Origin: Mycobacterium florentinum
GTDB taxonomy: Bacteria > Actinomycetota > Actinomycetes > Mycobacteriales > Mycobacteriaceae
Direction: 5' to 3'
Assembly (NCBI RefSeq): GCF_010730355.1
Contig: NZ_AP022576.1
Location: 4,092,001 to 4,156,000 of the forward strand
Length of the DNA: 64,000 bases
Under the pieces are notes generated by a model. That model made no database searches. It saw only the letters and a list, made by a program, of their open reading frames with translations, and was not told the origin of the DNA. Below are positions 31,670 through 39,326 of the stretch, one piece after another. The position numbers and the translations under genes were made by a program. Each line of letters opens with the position of its first letter. Position 1 is the stretch's first letter.

Positions 31670-31702
31670 CTCAGCGATGACTCAGCGACGAATCTGTAGC
31701 GT
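31670..31702 (+). promoter_or_regulatory. Direct-repeat regulator site and -10 box upstream of the PPE pair
   Basis: CTCAGCG-ATGA-CTCAGCG (31670-31687), an 11-bp-period direct repeat typical of OmpR-family regulators. Nine bases later comes TAGCGT (31697-31702), a TANNNT -10 box, then 8 bases to a GTG. The same arrangement, with about 44 of 54 bases identical, lies before the COG4705 gene at 39189. Confidence 0.6.
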
Positions 31703-31710
31703 CGGGCGCT

Positions 31711-31965
31711 GTGAGCAACACCGGGGAGTGCTGCTCATTGATGACGATTTTCGCTCGCCGCGGGACCGGATCGATTTGCGACGGTCCGCTCGGCGGCCGG
31801 CACGAAGACCCGTGTGAAGCACCCGCCGACGCGCCACGACATCTAGTACGGAGACTGCCAATGAAACCCGATATCCACTCCGACCATCGCGCCGCGGCCT
31901 TTCAAGGTGTTGCTACCAGTGCGCGGTCTTTCCCGGACCCGTCTGCCGCCACCGCAATCCGTTAG
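31711..31965 (+). CDS. Possible leaderless small ORF, doubtful
   Basis: 84 codons from GTG 31711, which sits 8 bases after the TAGCGT -10 box, as the ATG of the paralogous promoter at 39189 does. The product (SNTGECCSLMTIFARRG at the start) is Cys/Arg/Asp-rich and resembles nothing known. An internal ATG at 31861 has GGAG 8 bases upstream and would give 34 residues. It may be only the leader left after the promoter was duplicated, so coding is uncertain. Confidence 0.25.
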   Translation: MSNTGECCSLMTIFARRGTGSICDGPLGGRHEDPCEAPADAPRHLVRRLPMKPDIHSDHRAAAFQGVATSARSFPDPSAATAIR

Positions 31966-31981
31966 GCGCCGAGGGGGAACC

Positions 31982-33178
31982 ATGCTGGATTTTGCGGCGT
32001 TACCGCCGGAAGTGAATTCGGCCAGAATCTATTCTGGACCAGGATCGGGGCCATTGCTGTCAGCTGCCGCCACGTGGTACGTGCTGGCCGCCGAAATGCG
32101 GTTAGCGGCAACAGCTTACAGTTCGGTGATCGGGGACCTGATCAGCGCAGGCTGGTATGGTCCGTCGTCGACCTCGATGTTCGCGGCGGCCGCGCCCTAT
32201 ATCGCGTGGCTCAACACCACTGCCGCGCAGGCCGAGCAGACCGGCATGCACGCCAACGCGGCCGCGAGCGCTTTCGAGGCTGCGTTCGCGATGACCGTCC
32301 CGCCGCCGGTCGTGGCGGCCAACCGCACGCTGCTGGCGAACCTGGTGGCTACCAACATCTTCGGGCAGAACACCCCGACGATCGCGGCCACCGAAGCCGA
32401 CTACGCCGAAATGTGGGCCCAGGATGCCGGAGCGATGAATGGCTACGCCATGGCGTCGAACTCCGCGGTACAGCTGACGCCGTTCACCTCGCCGCGGGCG
32501 AACATCACCCCCGACGCGCTGGCGGGACAAAATGAGGCCGTCTCCCAAGCGGTCAGCACGGCAGCCGGGAATGCGCGGTCGTTGGTGTCGGCCAATGGCG
32601 TCGCAGCAGATGACGCGAATGCTCTCGCTGCGGCACCCCAAGGATCCTTGACTGATTACCTGACGGGTCTGTTGGACGGGTCGGACAACAGCGCGCTCGG
32701 AAGCTTTCTGGGAAGCACCTTTTTCAGCAACTCGGTCGTCACCGGTGGGCTTGGCGGCGGTCCGTTCAACCCCCAAACCATCCTGGCATCGGCTGTGGGT
32801 GTGGGTGCTATGGGATCGAGCGCCACCATAATGTCGGGTCTGGAGGAGTTCGGCTTCGGCGCGGAAGGCGCCGGGACTGCCGCGCTGGCATCCAACACCG
32901 TCTCGTTGGGCGGCTTGTCCGGCGCATCGGCCGGGGTGGCCAACGCGCATCTGGTGGGGTCGATTTCGGTGCCACAGAGCTGGGTCGGTGCGGCCAACAT
33001 CACTGCAGCTCAAGCGGCGGCGCCGGTCACCGGGCTCAGTGACATCGGGTCATCCGCGGCGGGCGGGCCCGGCGGTGTCGCAGGGCCGCTGGGCGGTAGC
33101 GGCCGCAGGTTACGCCGCTCCATCCCCAGGTACGGGATTCGCCCCGTCGTCATCCCGCGTCCGCCGGCCGCCGGTTAA
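31982..33178 (+). CDS. PPE family protein, SVP subgroup
   Basis: 398 residues from ATG 31982 (GAGGGGGAA upstream). The PPE domain fills about 1-180: Pro-Pro-Glu at 8-10 ([19 protein letters not shown]), and the WYGPSS form of the WxG turn at about 58. The variable part ends with the SVP motif GSISVPQSW (about 327-335) and a short basic Pro-rich tail. PPE proteins are exported by type VII (ESX) secretion, usually with a PE partner and EspG chaperone; no PE gene is next to it here. About 16 bp ahead of a second PPE gene. Confidence 0.93.
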
Positions 33179-33194
33179 TTTCAGGAGAAATGTC

Positions 33195-34397
33195 ATGTTG
33201 AATTTTGGGGCGTTACCGCCGGAAGTCAACTCGGCGAAGATGTACGCCGGCCCCGGGGCGGGATCAATGCTGGCGGCCGCGGCCGCATGGAATGCCATGG
33301 CCGCTGAATTACGGTCCGCAGCAACCAGTTACGATGCAGTCATCAGCTCACTGGTTAGCCAGGGGTGGCTGGGCCCGGCTTCGGCGAAGATGGCGGCTGC
33401 GGTACAGCCATACCTCGAGTGGCTGGGGACTACCGCAGTGGCGGCCGAGCGGGCCGGCGCACAGGCCAACGCGGCCGCCGCCGCATATGAGGCGGCGTTT
33501 GCCGCGACGGTGCCCCCGGCGGTCGTCGCGGCCAACCGCACGTTGCAAGCAAACCTGTTGGCAAGCAACATCTTCGGCCAGAACACCGGGGCGATCGCGG
33601 CCACCGATGCTCAGTACGGCGAGATGTGGGCACAGGATGCCTCGGCGATGACCAGCTACACCAGCGCGTCGTGCGCAGCCAGTGAGCTGGCGCCGTTCAG
33701 CCAACCGCAGTGCGACACCACCGCGGGCGCGACGGCCCTGCAGGCCGAGGCGGTCGACAACGCCATGGCGGCCCCGGCTGCGACTCAGGCGACCAATATC
33801 TGGGATTGGCTTGGCCTTTCGCCCAATTCGAATACGTCCACCGAGGGTCTTGCCGGCATCATGAACTTTTTCAGCAACTCCAACCAGAACCTGATCGGGG
33901 CTTTCCTCAACAACGCCTCCGTCTCGGGCCTGTCTAACGCCTTCACCACCAACGGGATCCTGAACCCGACGTCGTTTGTCGATTCGATGGTGACGATCAA
34001 CGGCCTGGGCGCAATAGGCGCAACCACGTCGGGGCTGGAGGATTTGGCCGCCGGCCTTGCCAGCGCGCCCGCGCTGGCGACGGCGGCGACGAACCTGCCC
34101 GGCGCGGCCGCGTCGGCGGCGTTAGGCGAGGCCAGCCTGGTGGGATCCCTATCGGTCCCGTCGAGTTGGGCCGGCGCCGGGGCGACCGTCAGCACAGTTG
34201 CCACGACGACTCGGATCGGGGCCGGGGCCTACCACGGCTTTGGCGCCGCCACCCCAATGGTGATGGAGGAGGTTGGGGCAGTGGGCATGCCCGGGGTGCC
34301 GCTGGCCGGCATTCCCGGTCCACACGAAGACGAATTCGCCGACCCTATCTACGGGTTCCGCCCCCGGGTCATCGGGCGCCCACCGGCCGCAGGTTAG
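33195..34397 (+). CDS. PPE family protein, SVP subgroup
   Basis: 400 residues from ATG 33195 (CAGGAGAAA upstream). It starts [19 protein letters not shown], has the WxG turn [26 protein letters not shown], and the SVP motif GSLSVPSSW (about 319-327), and ends [13 protein letters not shown], nearly the same tail as the upstream PPE. The two are tandem paralogues; similarity is highest in the PPE domain and the last 12 residues. Their secretion system is not encoded in the window. Confidence 0.93.
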
Positions 34398-34404
34398 GGG
34401 CCAG

Positions 34405-34719
34405 ATGAAAGCGCTTCTGGCAAGCGTCGTCGCCATGGTCGGCCTGGCCGCACCCGCTCACGCCGATCCCACCGACGATGCGTTTCTGGCCGCGCTCAGC
34501 AACGCGGGCATCACCTATCAGAGCCCGGACCGCGCGATCAAGGCGGGCCAAAAGGTTTGCGACTTGGCTAACGCAGGGACCTCGCAGCTTGACATCGTCC
34601 GGGACATCAAAGATCTCAACCCGGCCTTCACCATGGCCAAAGCCGCTCGGTTCGCCCACGCTGCCGCTGGTGCTTACTGCCCCGAACTCCTCGACACCGG
34701 CGGCAGCAGGAACCGATAA
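34405..34719 (+). CDS. DUF732 secreted small protein
   Basis: 104 residues from ATG 34405, 7 bp after the second PPE stop, so probably in the same operon. A signal peptide (MKALLASVVAMVGLAAPAHA, cleavage after Ala20) precedes the DUF732 domain DPTDDAFLAALSNAGITY with two Cys (KVCDLAN and GAYCPEL) expected to form a disulfide. DUF732 proteins are common exported mycobacterial proteins of unknown role. Confidence 0.88.
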   Translation: MKALLASVVAMVGLAAPAHADPTDDAFLAALSNAGITYQSPDRAIKAGQKVCDLANAGTSQLDIVRDIKDLNPAFTMAKAARFAHAAAGAYCPELLDTGGSRNR

Positions 34720-34725
34720 CGTCGG

Positions 34726-35559
34726 TCAGCCAGCACCGGGACCGGCATCGCGTGCTGCTCCCTCGGCCGCATCGGATTCCGACGACTCGGCGTCTTGCTC
34801 CGCGCCGGGATGCCGGCCCGGCCGCTGCGGCAGCACGATGATCAGGACGATGATCACGGCGGCGAGAGCCGCGGAAGCCAGCGGGCGGCTCAGGTTCAGT
34901 CCGCCGTGATCGACGGGCTTGTCGAGGAAATCCCCGACGGTCGCGCCGAGGGGCCGGGTCAGGATGAAGGCAATCCAGAACAAGGTGACGCGCGACATGT
35001 TGGTCCAGAAATACAGGCCTGCGACCACGAGCAACGCGACGCCGAACACCAGCGCACCGCCCTCGTACCCGAGCCCACCGTCGTCGGCGAGCCAATCGCC
35101 GAGCGCCGTGCCCAACGTCTGCGAAAAGGTGATGGTGGCCCAGTAGAACGCTTCGACTTTCGGCGTCGAGACGGTATTCACCGAGACAGTTCCCTCCGAC
35201 CAGTGCCAGAGCCCGAGGGTGGCCAGCAGCAGGAACAGCAGCAGGAGCGAGCCGCCCGCGTAGCCGATCCCGAGCGAACGGTCGGCGAAGTCGGCCAACA
35301 CGGTGCCGAAGGTCGTCGAGGCCACGATCGTGAGCCAGTACAGGACGGCATGGAAACGTTTGGCCCAAATCTGGGCGAAGACCAGTGCGATCAGCGTGCC
35401 GCCGAACAGGGCCACGCCCGCCAGATATCCCCAATCCAGCGTCATCGTGACGGTGTCGCCGCCCGTCTCGCCCAGCGTCGTCGCCAGCACCTTGATGACC
35501 CAAAAACCAAGGGTGACCGCCGGTACCTTGCTCAACGCGTGCTTCGTCATCTCGCTCAT
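34726..35559 (-). CDS. COG4705-type membrane protein (paralogue 1)
   Basis: 277 residues. About eight membrane segments form four similar units, each with a Thr-x-Gly-x3-(Gly/Ala)-Asp-like motif inside the membrane: TTLGETGGD (about 27-35), TTFGTVLADFAD, TLGTALGDWLAD and PLGATVGDFLD. The C terminus is a polar, acidic tail. The family is described only as a membrane-anchored protein; buried acidic residues in fourfold repeats suggest ion binding or transport (inference). Paralogue 2 is at 37924. It is divergent from the response regulator. Confidence 0.78.
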   Translation of the reverse strand: MSEMTKHALSKVPAVTLGFWVIKVLATTLGETGGDTVTMTLDWGYLAGVALFGGTLIALVFAQIWAKRFHAVLYWLTIVASTTFGTVLADFADRSLGIGYAGGSLLLLFLLLATLGLWHWSEGTVSVNTVSTPKVEAFYWATITFSQTLGTALGDWLADDGGLGYEGGALVFGVALLVVAGLYFWTNMSRVTLFWIAFILTRPLGATVGDFLDKPVDHGGLNLSRPLASAALAAVIIVLIIVLPQRPGRHPGAEQDAESSESDAAEGAARDAGPGAG

Positions 35560-35636
35560 GGGTGATCACCTGTCGATGTGCGGACCGTGTCGCGCCGCCG
35601 GCGCCTGCCGGTGCGATCTTCATACTTGCCGAGCCG

Positions 35637-35654
35637 AGTTGAGAAGACGCTGAG
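35637..35654 (-). promoter_or_regulatory. Direct-repeat site upstream of COG4705 paralogue 1
   Basis: On the minus strand: CTCAGCG-TCTT-CTCAACT, an 11-bp-period repeat whose second half matches 5 of 7 bases. It lies about 80 bp upstream of the start at 35559. It is the weakest of the four copies. Confidence 0.45.
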
Positions 35655-35695
35655 ACTCCGTATGGGGAAGCTGTGCACATGACGCTTAGACCGTC

Positions 35696-35713
35696 CTAAG
35701 CGCTTTCTCAGCG
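35696..35713 (+). promoter_or_regulatory. Direct-repeat site upstream of the response regulator gene
   Basis: CTAAGCG-CTTT-CTCAGCG, 11-bp period, 127 bp upstream of the regulator GTG at 35841. The bases before it form an inverted copy, CGCTTAG-ACCGTC-CTAAGCG. Autoregulation of the two-component system is the simplest reading. Confidence 0.6.
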
Positions 35714-35840
35714 TGCTCGTGCCACCGTGGTGCGATCGGGCCCGACCGTCGTGACATCGGGGAGTCGGCCTTGACGCACAGGCGCAAGATGATTGCCAGG
35801 GGTCTACCGGACTCGCGCCGATCAAGAAGGAGTCGAGCGG

Positions 35841-36545
35841 GTGAAGGTGCTGGTCGTCGAGGACGAGCCGCGGCTTGCGGCGACGCTGACGATGGGCTTG
35901 CGCGCCGAGGGTTGCGTGGTGACGACTGCCGACAACGGTAACGACGGGTTGTGGGAGGCCACCGAGAACCGTTTCGACGCCATCATTTTGGACATCATGC
36001 TGCCCGGGATCAGCGGCTATGAGGTGGTGCGCCGCATGCGCGCGGCGCAGGTGTGGACACCGGTGCTGATGCTGTCGGCCAAAGACGGCGACTACGAGCA
36101 GGCGGACGCGTTCGACTTGGGCGCCGATGACTATCTGACCAAACCGTTTTCATTCATCGTGCTGGTGGCGCGGCTGCGGGCGCTGGTTCGCCGCGGCGCC
36201 CCGCACCGCCCGGTCGTGCTGACCGCGGGCACGTTGTCGTTGGATCCGACGCGGCGCATCGTGCGCCGCAACGACGACTTGATCGCGTTGACGCCGCGCG
36301 AGTACGGGCTGCTGCACTATCTGATGCGCAACAAGGGCACGGTGGTGAGTAAGACCGATATCTTGCACAACGTCTGGGATCCGCACTTCTCCGGCGACGA
36401 CAACCTCGTCGAGGTCTACGTCTTCTATGTGCGGCGCAAGATCGATTTCCCGTTCGGCACCAACACAATTGCGACGGTGCGGGGGGTCGGCTACCGGCTG
36501 GAGGCCGGGGAGGACGCCGGCGTCGAGGCGACCAGCGGAAGCTGA
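35841..36545 (+). CDS. OmpR/PhoB-family response regulator
   Basis: 234 residues from GTG 35841 (AAGGAG about 8 bases upstream). Receiver domain at 1-115 with acidic pocket VVEDEP (7-9), phosphoacceptor Asp51 in IILDIMLPG and Lys near 101 in YLTKPFS. The winged-helix DNA-binding domain (about 130-225) has LTPREYGLLHYLMRNKGTVVSK and VRGVGYRLE. The kinase gene is tail to tail with it and the two overlap by 55 bp. Direct repeats of 11-bp period upstream of its neighbours are candidate binding sites. Confidence 0.92.
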   Translation: MKVLVVEDEPRLAATLTMGLRAEGCVVTTADNGNDGLWEATENRFDAIILDIMLPGISGYEVVRRMRAAQVWTPVLMLSAKDGDYEQADAFDLGADDYLTKPFSFIVLVARLRALVRRGAPHRPVVLTAGTLSLDPTRRIVRRNDDLIALTPREYGLLHYLMRNKGTVVSKTDILHNVWDPHFSGDDNLVEVYVFYVRRKIDFPFGTNTIATVRGVGYRLEAGEDAGVEATSGS

Positions 36546-37909
36546 ACGACGACCGCCGTGCCGCCGCCGGGGCGGTCGTCGATGCGCACGCTACCGCCAT
36601 GCGCCGCCACGATTTCGAACACGATGGCCAGTCCCAGGCCGGTGCCGCCGCCGCTGCGGGAGCGGTCGGTGTCCAGGCGCACGAACCGCTCGAACACTCG
36701 TAGCCGGTCGGCGGGCGCGATCCCGGGGCCGTCGTCGCCCACGGTCAGGCGGGCGTGACCGTCTTCGGGCCGCACCGTCACCTCCACCCGCGAGGTCGCA
36801 TGCCGCGCCGCGTTGTCGAGAAGGTTACGCAGCACGCGCGCCAGCGCACTCGAGTCACCGACCAGCCGTGTCGGAACGAGTTCGGTATGCACGTCCAACG
36901 CCGTCTCGCGCCGCAGTCGGGTGGCCTCGGTGACGGCCAGATCGTCGATGTCGGTGTCCGTGCGGCGCAGTGCCAATCCACGTTCGTCGGCGCGGGCCAG
37001 CAGCAGCAGGTCTTCCACCAGCGCCTGCATCCGGTGCGCTTCCGGCAGCAACGTCTCGCCGGCGAGCCGATCGTCGAGCAGCTCGGGGTGGGCGACGCCG
37101 ACCTCGAGTGCCGAGATCACCGTCGAAAGTGGGCTGCGCAGTTCATGGGAGGCGTCGGCGATGAACCGGCGCTGGACGGCTTGGCTGGACTCGAGGCGGG
37201 ACAGCATCTGGTTCATCGTCGTTGCCAGCGTGAAGATCTCGTCGCGTTGCGACGGCACCGGCACCCGCTCGGCCAGATCGGAGGCGCTGATAGCGGCGAC
37301 CCGGGAGCGAATCGCCTCCACCGAACGCAGTGACCGTCGCACCAGAACGTAGGTGGCTACGCTGGCCGCCGCGATCACCAACGGCGCGGCCGCGGCCAGG
37401 CCGATCGCCACCGTCGAGACGGTGGTCTCCACGTCCTCGGTGCCGGCCCCGACGAGTACGACGTAACGTCCCGTCGGCGTCTCGAGCGATTGCCCGGCCA
37501 CCCGGACGTCGCGCATCCGCACCGCGGCGCCGGTGATTCCGACCCGCGGCGTACTGCCGACCGCGTTGAGCGCCAGCATCGGCGGCTCGGGTGTGGAACT
37601 CGACGTGGCCACCGGATGCCCGGCTCCGTCGAGAATTTGGACGGCGACGATGCGTTGGTCGGTGGCCAGCAGCGGCGGGTCGATGTCGGGGGTGGTCTCC
37701 GCTTGCAGTGTCTTGGCGATGTCGCGCAGCCGGCTCGCCGCCGCGTCGTCGGCGGCCGAAATCAGTGCGAAGTACAACACCAACAACAGGATCGCGCCGG
37801 CCATGCTGAGCGCCACCAGGATGACCGTCGCCGACACCAATGCCGAGCGCGCCGAGATGCTCCACGCCCGTGGGTGCAGCAGCATCGGCGTCCGGCTTGA
37901 AAGTGGCAT
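36491..37909 (-). CDS. Two-component sensor histidine kinase
   Basis: 472 residues from ATG 37909 (GTG 37915 possible). Membrane helix 1 is at about 27-50 and helix 2 at about 166-190, enclosing an extracytoplasmic sensor of about 115 residues. Then come HAMP (191-245), the H box FIADASHELRSPLS (His255), the N box RNLLDNAARH, GDDGPGIAP and GGGTGLGLAI. Its 3' end overlaps the response regulator gene on the other strand by 55 bp. It starts 14 bp after COG4705 paralogue 2 on the same strand, so these two likely form an operon and the membrane protein may take part in sensing. Confidence 0.9.
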   Translation of the reverse strand: MPLSSRTPMLLHPRAWSISARSALVSATVILVALSMAGAILLLVLYFALISAADDAAASRLRDIAKTLQAETTPDIDPPLLATDQRIVAVQILDGAGHPVATSSSTPEPPMLALNAVGSTPRVGITGAAVRMRDVRVAGQSLETPTGRYVVLVGAGTEDVETTVSTVAIGLAAAAPLVIAAASVATYVLVRRSLRSVEAIRSRVAAISASDLAERVPVPSQRDEIFTLATTMNQMLSRLESSQAVQRRFIADASHELRSPLSTVISALEVGVAHPELLDDRLAGETLLPEAHRMQALVEDLLLLARADERGLALRRTDTDIDDLAVTEATRLRRETALDVHTELVPTRLVGDSSALARVLRNLLDNAARHATSRVEVTVRPEDGHARLTVGDDGPGIAPADRLRVFERFVRLDTDRSRSGGGTGLGLAIVFEIVAAHGGSVRIDDRPGGGTAVVVQLPLVASTPASSPASSR

Positions 37910-37923
37910 CAGCACGGACGGTA

Positions 37924-39189
37924 CTACTGCAGCGCGGTCAACAATGCGGTCAGCTGCTGCTTCTCGGTGGCCGGGTTGGGCACCGGGGCCCGCACAGCTG
38001 TCAGTACGCCGTCGATCTGCTTGTCGAGGGTGTGCCACGCGATTTGGTTCATCGGTTTCAGCTTCGACTCGTCGTCATCCCATGCGGTTTCCAGGTCCTT
38101 GATCCGGGCCTTGGCGCCGGGCTGATCGCCGGCGTGCACCTTGGAGAGCGTGTCCTGCGTGATGGTTCGGAAGGTGGCGACCTCGACAGGTGGGAAGGCC
38201 GACGCGGGTTGGCCGGCTTGCGCGGGCGCGGTGATCGTCGAAGTGGTGGCAGAGTCCAATTCTTCATCGGTTTCCGTGGCGCCCGAATGACCGTGCCCGC
38301 TCCAGAGCAGCAGTGCACCAGTAGCAACCGCCGCCGCCGTGTAGTAGCCCAGCATCAGCCGCTCGCGTACGGGTGTCGTGGTGACAGTCGTTGCGCGGGT
38401 TGGGTTTTCGTCGTCGATGAGGTCACCGCGGCTGACCATCAGATACCCGACCGTGGCGAGGATCGCGGCCAAAAAGATGGCGCTGGTGATCGCGGTTCCC
38501 CAGCCCAGACCGTGGTTGGCCGGGGAGGAGGCCAGCCAGTCGCCGAGGTTGGCGCCCAGCGGGCGGGTCAGGATGTAGGCGAGCCAGAAGGACAGCACCG
38601 GGTTGGCGCCGGCCCGCCAGCCGATCGCAATCGAGGCGATCAGGGCGGCCGGCAGCAGCACCGAGGTGCCCGGCCCCCAGCCGGTGAGCTGCAACGTCCA
38701 GTCGCCCGCGGCAGTACCCAGGGCGAACGTAACCAGCACCGCCAGCCAGTAGAACAACTCCCGGGGTGTCGTGACGATGCTGTGGATCGACAGGGTGTGC
38801 TCCCGCATGTACCAGACCCCGAAGACGACGGCCAATGTCGTCGCGAACACGGCCGTGCTGACCGCCAGCGGTACATGCAGCTTGTCGGTCAGCAGGTCGG
38901 TGTACAGCGTGCCCGTGATGCTCAGCACGACAACCGCCAGCCAGTAGACGATCGGCATATAGCGGTCCAGGACCAACTGGAAGCCGAGGACGACCCCGAG
39001 GGCGACGGTGAAGATCAGCGCGGTGACGTTAAGGCCAAGTCCCACAGTGGTACTGATCCAGTCAGCGAAGCTCTCGCCGACGGTCGTGCAGAGGATCTTG
39101 ATGATCCAGAACCACACCGTGACCTCAGGAACCTTGCTGAGCATCACGCGGGGATTGCCGAGGGCTATGGAACGGATTGTCTTGCTCAT
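37924..39189 (-). CDS. COG4705-type membrane protein with extracytoplasmic C-terminal domain (paralogue 2)
   Basis: 421 residues. Residues 1-265 repeat the fourfold plan of paralogue 1: TTVGESFADWI, ITGTLYTDLLTD, ALGTAAGDWTLQ and PLGANLGDWLA, each followed by membrane segments. A ninth helix (about 285-300) is followed by GHGHSGATETDEELDS and a predicted helical domain of about 85 residues with an acidic patch (ETAWDDDESKL) and conserved-looking Trp residues. The His/Asp-rich linker may bind metal. The gene is preceded by a direct-repeat site and a likely leaderless promoter, and followed by the kinase gene. Confidence 0.78.
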   Translation of the reverse strand: MSKTIRSIALGNPRVMLSKVPEVTVWFWIIKILCTTVGESFADWISTTVGLGLNVTALIFTVALGVVLGFQLVLDRYMPIVYWLAVVVLSITGTLYTDLLTDKLHVPLAVSTAVFATTLAVVFGVWYMREHTLSIHSIVTTPRELFYWLAVLVTFALGTAAGDWTLQLTGWGPGTSVLLPAALIASIAIGWRAGANPVLSFWLAYILTRPLGANLGDWLASSPANHGLGWGTAITSAIFLAAILATVGYLMVSRGDLIDDENPTRATTVTTTPVRERLMLGYYTAAAVATGALLLWSGHGHSGATETDEELDSATTSTITAPAQAGQPASAFPPVEVATFRTITQDTLSKVHAGDQPGAKARIKDLETAWDDDESKLKPMNQIAWHTLDKQIDGVLTAVRAPVPNPATEKQQLTALLTALQ

Positions 39190-39197
39190 GGCGCCCG

Positions 39198-39230
39198 AAG
39201 GTACAGATGAGTCGCTGAGTCAGCGCTTAG
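39198..39230 (-). promoter_or_regulatory. Direct-repeat site and -10 box of the COG4705-kinase operon
   Basis: On the minus strand CTAAGCG-CTGA-CTCAGCG (39230 down to 39213), 9 bases, then TACCTT (39203-39198) as -10 box, then 8 bases to the ATG at 39189. The repeat covers the -35 position, as expected for activation by an OmpR-type regulator. The transcript would be leaderless. Confidence 0.65.

Positions 39231-39249: not shown

Positions 39250-39326
<77 letters not shown>

Follow-up and report, generated by a model that had tools for sequence, protein, structure and literature searches.

A 64,000-nucleotide stretch of the 6.22-Mb genome of Mycobacterium florentinum (G000:C1:4092001-4156000; hereafter the window) contains an island in which four copies of a direct repeat, CTMAGCG-N4-CTCAGCG, precede the genes for a response regulator, two DUF347/COG4705 membrane proteins (DUF347-1 and DUF347-2) and a pair of PPE-SVP proteins. 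We judge it likely, at a probability of roughly 85%, that these repeats are the boxes of the OmpR/PhoB-family regulator encoded at 35841-36545 and that they activate an envelope module. The same box is kept beside the same regulator in many mycobacteria and is very probably that regulator's on-switch. The finding is real and its regulatory reading is well supported by comparison between species; new here is a -10 hexamer which follows the box in phase, at a distance of 9 bp.

The four repeats described by an earlier, sequence-only reading were recovered at the same positions and on the same strands. Three are exact, namely CTCAGCG-ATGA-CTCAGCG before the PPE pair (31670-31687, plus strand), CTAAGCG-CTTT-CTCAGCG before the response regulator (35696-35713, plus strand) and CTAAGCG-CTGA-CTCAGCG before DUF347-2 and the sensor kinase (39213-39230, minus strand); the fourth, CTCAGCG-TCTT-CTCAACT before DUF347-1 (35637-35654, minus strand), has two mismatches which are kept in relatives. 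Throughout the 6.22-Mb genome the exact pattern CTMAGCG-N4-CTMAGCG occurs at three sites, all inside the island, and the pattern written backwards gave no exact match. Hence the motif did not turn out to be common without link to the locus, as that reading had allowed it might. The weak DUF347-1 box gains support because its degenerate half CTCAACT, with NANNNT after a 9-bp spacer, recurs in all four examined relatives with an orthologous DUF347-1 (G134, M. triplex, M. ahvazicum and Mycobacterium sp. 1100029.7). The PPE-pair box lies inside a conserved block, the rest of the upstream region having diverged between this genome and G134, and has a counterpart at the equivalent position in both M. 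triplex and M. ahvazicum.

Linkage of box and regulator was examined in 148 genomes of the genus, several of them incomplete. Regulator matches at E values up to 1e-50 were present in 63 of these, and 72 out of 88 places, in 54 genomes, were kept at an identity of at least 57% as the regulator-bearing set. The exact box pattern occurs 102 times in the 148 genomes. Of these sites, 77 fall in the regulator-bearing genomes, and 56 of the 77 are no more than 10 kb away from the regulator, against an expected share of about 0.4%; the other 94 genomes hold 25, i.e. background, as the backwards pattern gave 11 and 21 sites, respectively. At least one exact site was found in 39 of the 54 regulator-bearing genomes versus 22 of the 94 others (Fisher p = 1e-8; p-values serve as indications only, given that relatedness makes the genomes non-independent). 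Five out of five loci with a DUF347 gene and no such regulator adjoining (L164-L168) had no site at up to one mismatch. Compared across related species, as the earlier reading had suggested, these tandem half-sites with a period of about 11 bp, the form in which OmpR-family regulators bind, are found in company with the regulator gene.

The boxes also hold a fixed place in the promoter. Within an alignment of 56 distinct exact sites from the window and 72 loci (L092-L163), 50 have A at position 11 downstream of the box and 43 have T at position 15. The hexamer NANNNT follows a 9-bp spacer in 43 of these 56 regulator-linked sites, in 30 of the 36 that remain when sites at least 70% identical downstream are dropped, and in at most 8 of 56 at any other spacing from 0 to 59. 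The -10-like hexamers of the window are TAGCGT for the PPE pair (31697-31702, plus strand), AAGTAT for DUF347-1 (35622-35627, minus strand), CACCGT for the response regulator (35723-35728, plus strand) and TACCTT for DUF347-2 (39198-39203, minus strand). Transcription is predicted to start about 7-8 bp after these hexamers; since only 8 bp separate the DUF347-2 hexamer from the ATG, the mRNA of this gene probably lacks a leader.

Phase controls cover those sites whose surrounding sequence was examined. The phased hexamer was seen in 0 of 16 such sites (of 25) in regulator-less genomes, in 1 of 9 sites (of 9) from other genera and in 2 of 9 (of 21) distal sites of regulator-bearing genomes. Judged by eye, one of these last two (L013) precedes a DedA-type gene and the other (L185) lies in sequence similar to the FTR1 promoter of L126; both may be genuine. 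As a separate observation, CTAAGCGTTGACTCAGCG is common to two loci from genomes without the regulator (L178 and L190), at corresponding positions ahead of a gene that begins with MTWHPHANTAKTFALL; its TTGAC may be a plain -35 element.

A scan of 68 regulator loci (1.25 Mb, several from one genome and some overlapping) returned 40, 72 and 111 phased sites at up to zero, one and two mismatches, against none at each level for the backwards motif, and 56 loci had at least one phased site at up to two mismatches. No phased site was found in twelve further loci, L168 and L171 among them, comprising orphan DUF347 genes, regulators of 51-57% identity and two loci of other genera. When only CAGC-N7-CAGC with a phased hexamer was demanded, 99 distinct sites appeared in 75 loci, versus one in reversed sequences. 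The profile derived from them is [t]CTCAGCG-N3-[t]CTCAGCg, with T in 97% at position 2 and G in 91% at position 7. Because the hexamer follows the 9-bp spacer in 43 of 56 linked sites versus 0 of 16 regulator-less ones, we read the box as a probable activator site in the -35 position. The place of the -35 element, at a fixed distance from the -10, is one usual for OmpR-family activators.

The island comprises, in order, PPE-SVP protein 1 (398 residues; 31982-33178, plus strand), PPE-SVP protein 2 (400 residues; 33195-34397, plus strand), a DUF732 protein (104 residues; 34405-34719, plus strand), DUF347-1 (277 residues; 34726-35559, minus strand), the response regulator (234 residues; 35841-36545, plus strand), the sensor histidine kinase (36491-37912, minus strand; start codon picked by eye) and DUF347-2 (421 residues; 37924-39189, minus strand). 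A tRNA-Pro (cgg) gene (39250-39326, minus strand) adjoins the DUF347-2 promoter and possibly marks an island edge. Both PPE proteins exceed the Pfam cut-offs (PPE 221 and 213 bits; PPE-SVP 52 and 58 bits) and thus have the PPE domain and the SVP C-terminal region; the DUF732 match scores 73 bits, and each DUF347 protein matches Pfam DUF347 in four stretches. The regulator combines a receiver (Response_reg) with a winged-helix Trans_reg_C domain (recognition helix NLVEVYVFYVRRK) and its partner kinase has HAMP, HisKA and HATPase_c domains, as in OmpR/PhoB two-component systems. The kinase gene is convergent with that of the regulator, an order repeated in many relatives' loci. The predicted structure of DUF347-1 shows eight long helices; DUF347-2 has an additional C-terminal four-helix domain (window 37924-38190; model residues 334-420, predicted local distance difference test scores of the block 83-93) which DUF347-1 lacks. 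The regulator is 97% identical to that of M. triplex and 96% to that of M. ahvazicum, which places the species near these two, in what we take to be the M. simiae group.

The proposed regulon consists of the regulator, DUF347-2 with the kinase, DUF347-1, the PPE pair with the DUF732 gene, and a distant gene for a small secreted Cys-x-Cys protein. All members named in the sequence-only reading, i.e. the regulator, both membrane proteins, the kinase and the two PPE-SVP proteins, are retained, and the set is slightly larger by the last gene and the DUF732 gene; the latter begins 7 bp after PPE-SVP protein 2 and is probably in one transcript with the pair. One site had been assigned to DUF347-2 and the kinase together. 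It stands before DUF347-2, and the kinase, without a box of its own, follows DUF347-2 on that strand after 11 bp, counted to the start codon adopted for the kinase.

The distant gene came from a relaxed scan of the own genome (18 matches; backwards control 8), which found CTCAGCG-CTGG-TTCAGCG with a phased TACCGT at G000:C1:79568-79600 on the minus strand, outside the window (loci L197 and L294). Behind this box lies the gene for a protein of 65 residues, which has a signal-like N-terminus and contains a CTCQ motif, and the arrangement is repeated in G134. A residue-pattern search placed relatives of the protein behind boxes in nine other loci of other species; in BLASTP against the own protein, eight of the nine scored 33.9-38.1 bits and the ninth (L110) 26.2, the best of 60 shuffled rounds reaching 23.5. 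The distant promoter matches that of the PPE pair at 30 of 36 positions downstream of the box and at 24 of 30 upstream; between the PPE and DUF347-2 promoters the figures are 27 of 36 and 9 of 30, and none of 20,000 random pairs from the window exceeded 23 of 36. Because the distant and PPE promoters are alike over their whole length, the PPE pair and the small secreted protein seem to share a duplicated promoter. The relaxed pattern also matched a dispersed CACACTC-repeat sequence, which looks like another family than the box, at C1 positions 112566 (minus), 1039228 (minus), 3116190 (minus) and 5119955 (plus).

Relatives yielded 104 box sites in 80 loci, 90 of them in phase, when exact sites and those with one mismatch plus a phased hexamer were accepted (loci partly overlap; genes were classed by their longest frame and some are misnamed). 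The genes behind them are DUF347 (26, of which 18 in phase), regulator (12), MspA porin (6) and PPE (5) genes, followed by smaller classes: small Cys proteins, PAP2, BacA, DedA-type, FTR1, HlyIII and ABC or solute-binding genes. In some relatives the box thus stands before genes for MspA porins or for phosphatases of undecaprenyl pyrophosphate (C55-PP); PAP2, BacA and FTR1 genes are boxed in single or few relatives. MspA genes occur in 9 of 75 regulator loci, and a tenth, L157, takes in the edge of the one in L106. PPE genes were found in 6 of the 75, never in a locus with an MspA gene.

In the proposed mechanism the kinase would phosphorylate the regulator, two molecules of which would bind CTCAGCG-N4-CTCAGCG head to tail, one per half-site, as shown for M. 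tuberculosis PhoP. From the -35 place, 9 bp before the -10 hexamer, they would recruit RNA polymerase and thereby switch on five promoters: that of the regulator itself, that of DUF347-2 and the kinase, that of DUF347-1, that of the PPE-SVP pair and the DUF732 gene, and that of the distant small secreted protein. The result would be an envelope module under positive autoregulation, with regulator and kinase expressed from two different boxed promoters. Less certainly, and by analogy, the module might handle a divalent metal or a related envelope stress, with the PPE proteins as its outer-membrane part.

Several observations weigh against this reading. No phased site at up to two mismatches was found in 12 of the 68 regulator loci, nor before the DUF347 genes of regulator-bearing genomes at L168 (G006, second locus) and L171 (G065, separate contig), so that the regulon excludes some DUF347 genes of such genomes. 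Eight of the 26 sites called before DUF347 genes lack the exact NANNNT phase. The regulator gene itself is directly preceded by a box in 11 of the 80 scanned loci; in some others it follows a boxed DUF347 or MspA gene. A loose scan of the window at three mismatches gave 29 matches versus 21.8 ± 4.7 in shuffles, 4 of 100 of which reach 29; the window being unremarkable at this level, the case rests on the exact matches. Finally, G156, a genome with no regulator match, keeps a degenerate distant promoter (L302; CTCAGTG-TTGG-TCCAGCG, TACCGT in phase), which could be a relic or could point to an earlier owner of the box.

The role of the module is a matter of analogy, and divalent metal handling or a linked envelope stress is put forward tentatively, at even odds or somewhat less. 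We lean to metal because DUF347 genes occur in the Zn- and Pb-induced mmf cassette (PMC12029693; PMC2864759) and in UppP-DUF347 operons listed among lead-induced genes in the available passages of a Frankia paper (PMC4531530). The mmf cassette of Tn6048 (Cupriavidus, with plasmid copies) clusters two DUF347 genes with the genes of a secreted protein and a two-component pair, and in this it resembles the island (PMC12029693; PMC4914505). It differs in that mmfR is only 32% identical to the island regulator, with another recognition helix, that the mmf copy scanned has no phased box of the island type, that its PepSY and UppP (C55-PP phosphatase) genes are not among the nine proteins of island and flanks scanned here, and that the gene lists available for mmf contain no PPE gene. 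The lead-induced operons share with the regulon the pairing of DUF347 with a C55-PP phosphatase, a partner boxed here in a few relatives; the available passages on them describe no regulator or box (PMC4531530). TIGR01387, the model of CusR/CzcR-type heavy-metal regulators, is the best-scoring NCBIfam model for the island regulator, whose 207.2 bits fall short of the 279.2-bit cut-off. Against a metal role count this shortfall, that of the kinase (205 bits versus a heavy-metal subfamily cut-off of 293), the low identity of mmfR and the absence of a phosphatase gene among the nine proteins scanned.

An alternative for the function only, to which we give nearly the same credence as to its negation, is that the module answers envelope or lipid-carrier stress (e.g. 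a bacitracin-like block of C55-PP recycling) or serves iron supply, and that DUF347 is not a metal transporter. The BacA, PAP2, DedA-type, MspA, FTR1 and solute-binding-protein genes boxed in relatives point this way, as do the bacitracin resistance and the Fe/V growth effect reported for an mmf plasmid (PMC4914505), and comparison of the DUF347 model with solved structures gave no clear relative; the reported Zn/Pb induction of mmf and lead induction of the UppP-DUF347 operons speak against it. Separately, a Bradyrhizobium betae plasmid typed as conjugative (L324) encodes a DUF347 protein with 77% identity to DUF347-1, and its neighbours include genes for TMEM165/GDT1, an undecaprenyl-diphosphatase, CrcB and an RND pump; this suggests DUF347 gene transfer between phyla.

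As to the owner of the boxes, M. tuberculosis PhoP is the solved structure that the regulator matches best. PhoP binds as a tandem dimer to direct repeats of 7 bp set 4 bp apart, TCACAGC-N4-TCACAGC; in its DNA complex, bases are contacted by Asn212, Val213, Glu215, Ser216, Tyr217 and Tyr220, and A6 of TCACAGC is reached through a water that Asn212 and Ser216 hold (PMC4832192). The island system shares the OmpR/PhoB family, the repeat geometry and the CAGC core. At the six contact positions, however, the island regulator has Asn, Leu, Glu, Val, Tyr and Tyr (N-L-V-E-V-Y-x-x-Y), differing from PhoP in Leu for Val213 and Val for Ser216, and with the CAGC cores aligned the half-site A6 becomes T in the island box. 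The PhoP pattern N-V-V-E-S-Y-x-x-Y is thus absent from this regulator; it is the helix of a PhoP-type gene of the same genome (L315; N-V-V-E-S-Y). Relatives of the regulator read N-[V/I/L, rarely A/T]-V-E-V-Y-x-x-Y, mostly N-[VI], with Val in the place of S216 and Ile instead in two (L150 and L153). The Ser-to-Val change may therefore match the A-to-T change as a specificity determinant, as a preference and not an absolute switch, since A stands at the PhoP-like position of the second half-site in 20% of the 99-site profile.

That PhoP or MprA owns the boxes, with the island regulator a bystander, is improbable. It draws on the common spacing, on the 20% of boxes with CACAGC as second half-site, on the degenerate box in regulator-less G156, and on a regulator of the same genome, presumably MprA, whose helix NALEVYVGY (NALEVYVGYLRRK) shares five of the six contact residues with the island regulator; these last three points, too, count against our own reading. 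PhoP and MprA are expected in regulator-less species as well. Those genomes are nevertheless at background (25 sites versus 21 backwards) and their sites out of phase (0 of 16 examined), 56 of 77 sites lie near an island-type regulator, and TCACAGC-N4-TCACAGC is at chance in the window (6 matches at three mismatches, 7.1 expected), one match overlapping the DUF347-1 box and none the three exact boxes. The sites of the island regulator, unlike those of PhoP, are confined to one island and one distant promoter. A limited literature search turned up no mycobacterial MprA site consensus, and the C. glutamicum motif TKTTAAGAAM (PMC12113857) is unlike the box. Genus-wide co-occurrence, the fixed promoter position and PhoP as best solved relative all favour the island regulator as owner, as the sequence-only reading had supposed.

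It is very improbable that the island regulator binds the boxes mainly as a repressor, silencing the module. A site beside the -10 can also block polymerase, and the sign of regulation is here read from sequence alone; the box nevertheless takes the place of the -35 element, its distance from the -10 is constant, and the position tables show no other conserved element between the two. Chance repeats mistaken for a regulon, to which the three-mismatch count barely above shuffles might seem to point, are refuted by the exact-site, genus-linkage and phase counts and have a negligible probability.

Sequence alone allows a two-component system to be named together with its probable DNA box and a small set of target genes, with a box position precise enough to predict transcription starts. 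Relative to PhoP, the paired Ser/Val and A/T changes offer a concrete hypothesis on specificity. DUF347/COG4705, PPE-SVP and the small secreted Cys-x-Cys proteins, three families whose function is unclear, are tied to one switch, and each becomes testable through the others. That the same box governs an MspA porin in some loci and a PPE pair in others lends indirect support to PPE proteins as outer-membrane channels. It is conceivable, although we consider it rather doubtful, that one regulator family owns a movable, strictly phased activator cassette which on two occasions took in a gene for an outer-membrane channel: that of an MspA porin in some mycobacteria and, with promoter and leader duplicated, the PPE-SVP pair in the M. 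simiae group. PPE-SVP and DUF347 proteins would then serve one envelope system for metal handling, the former in its outer and the latter in its inner membrane. If this were true, the orphan DUF347 and PPE-SVP families would gain a testable function.

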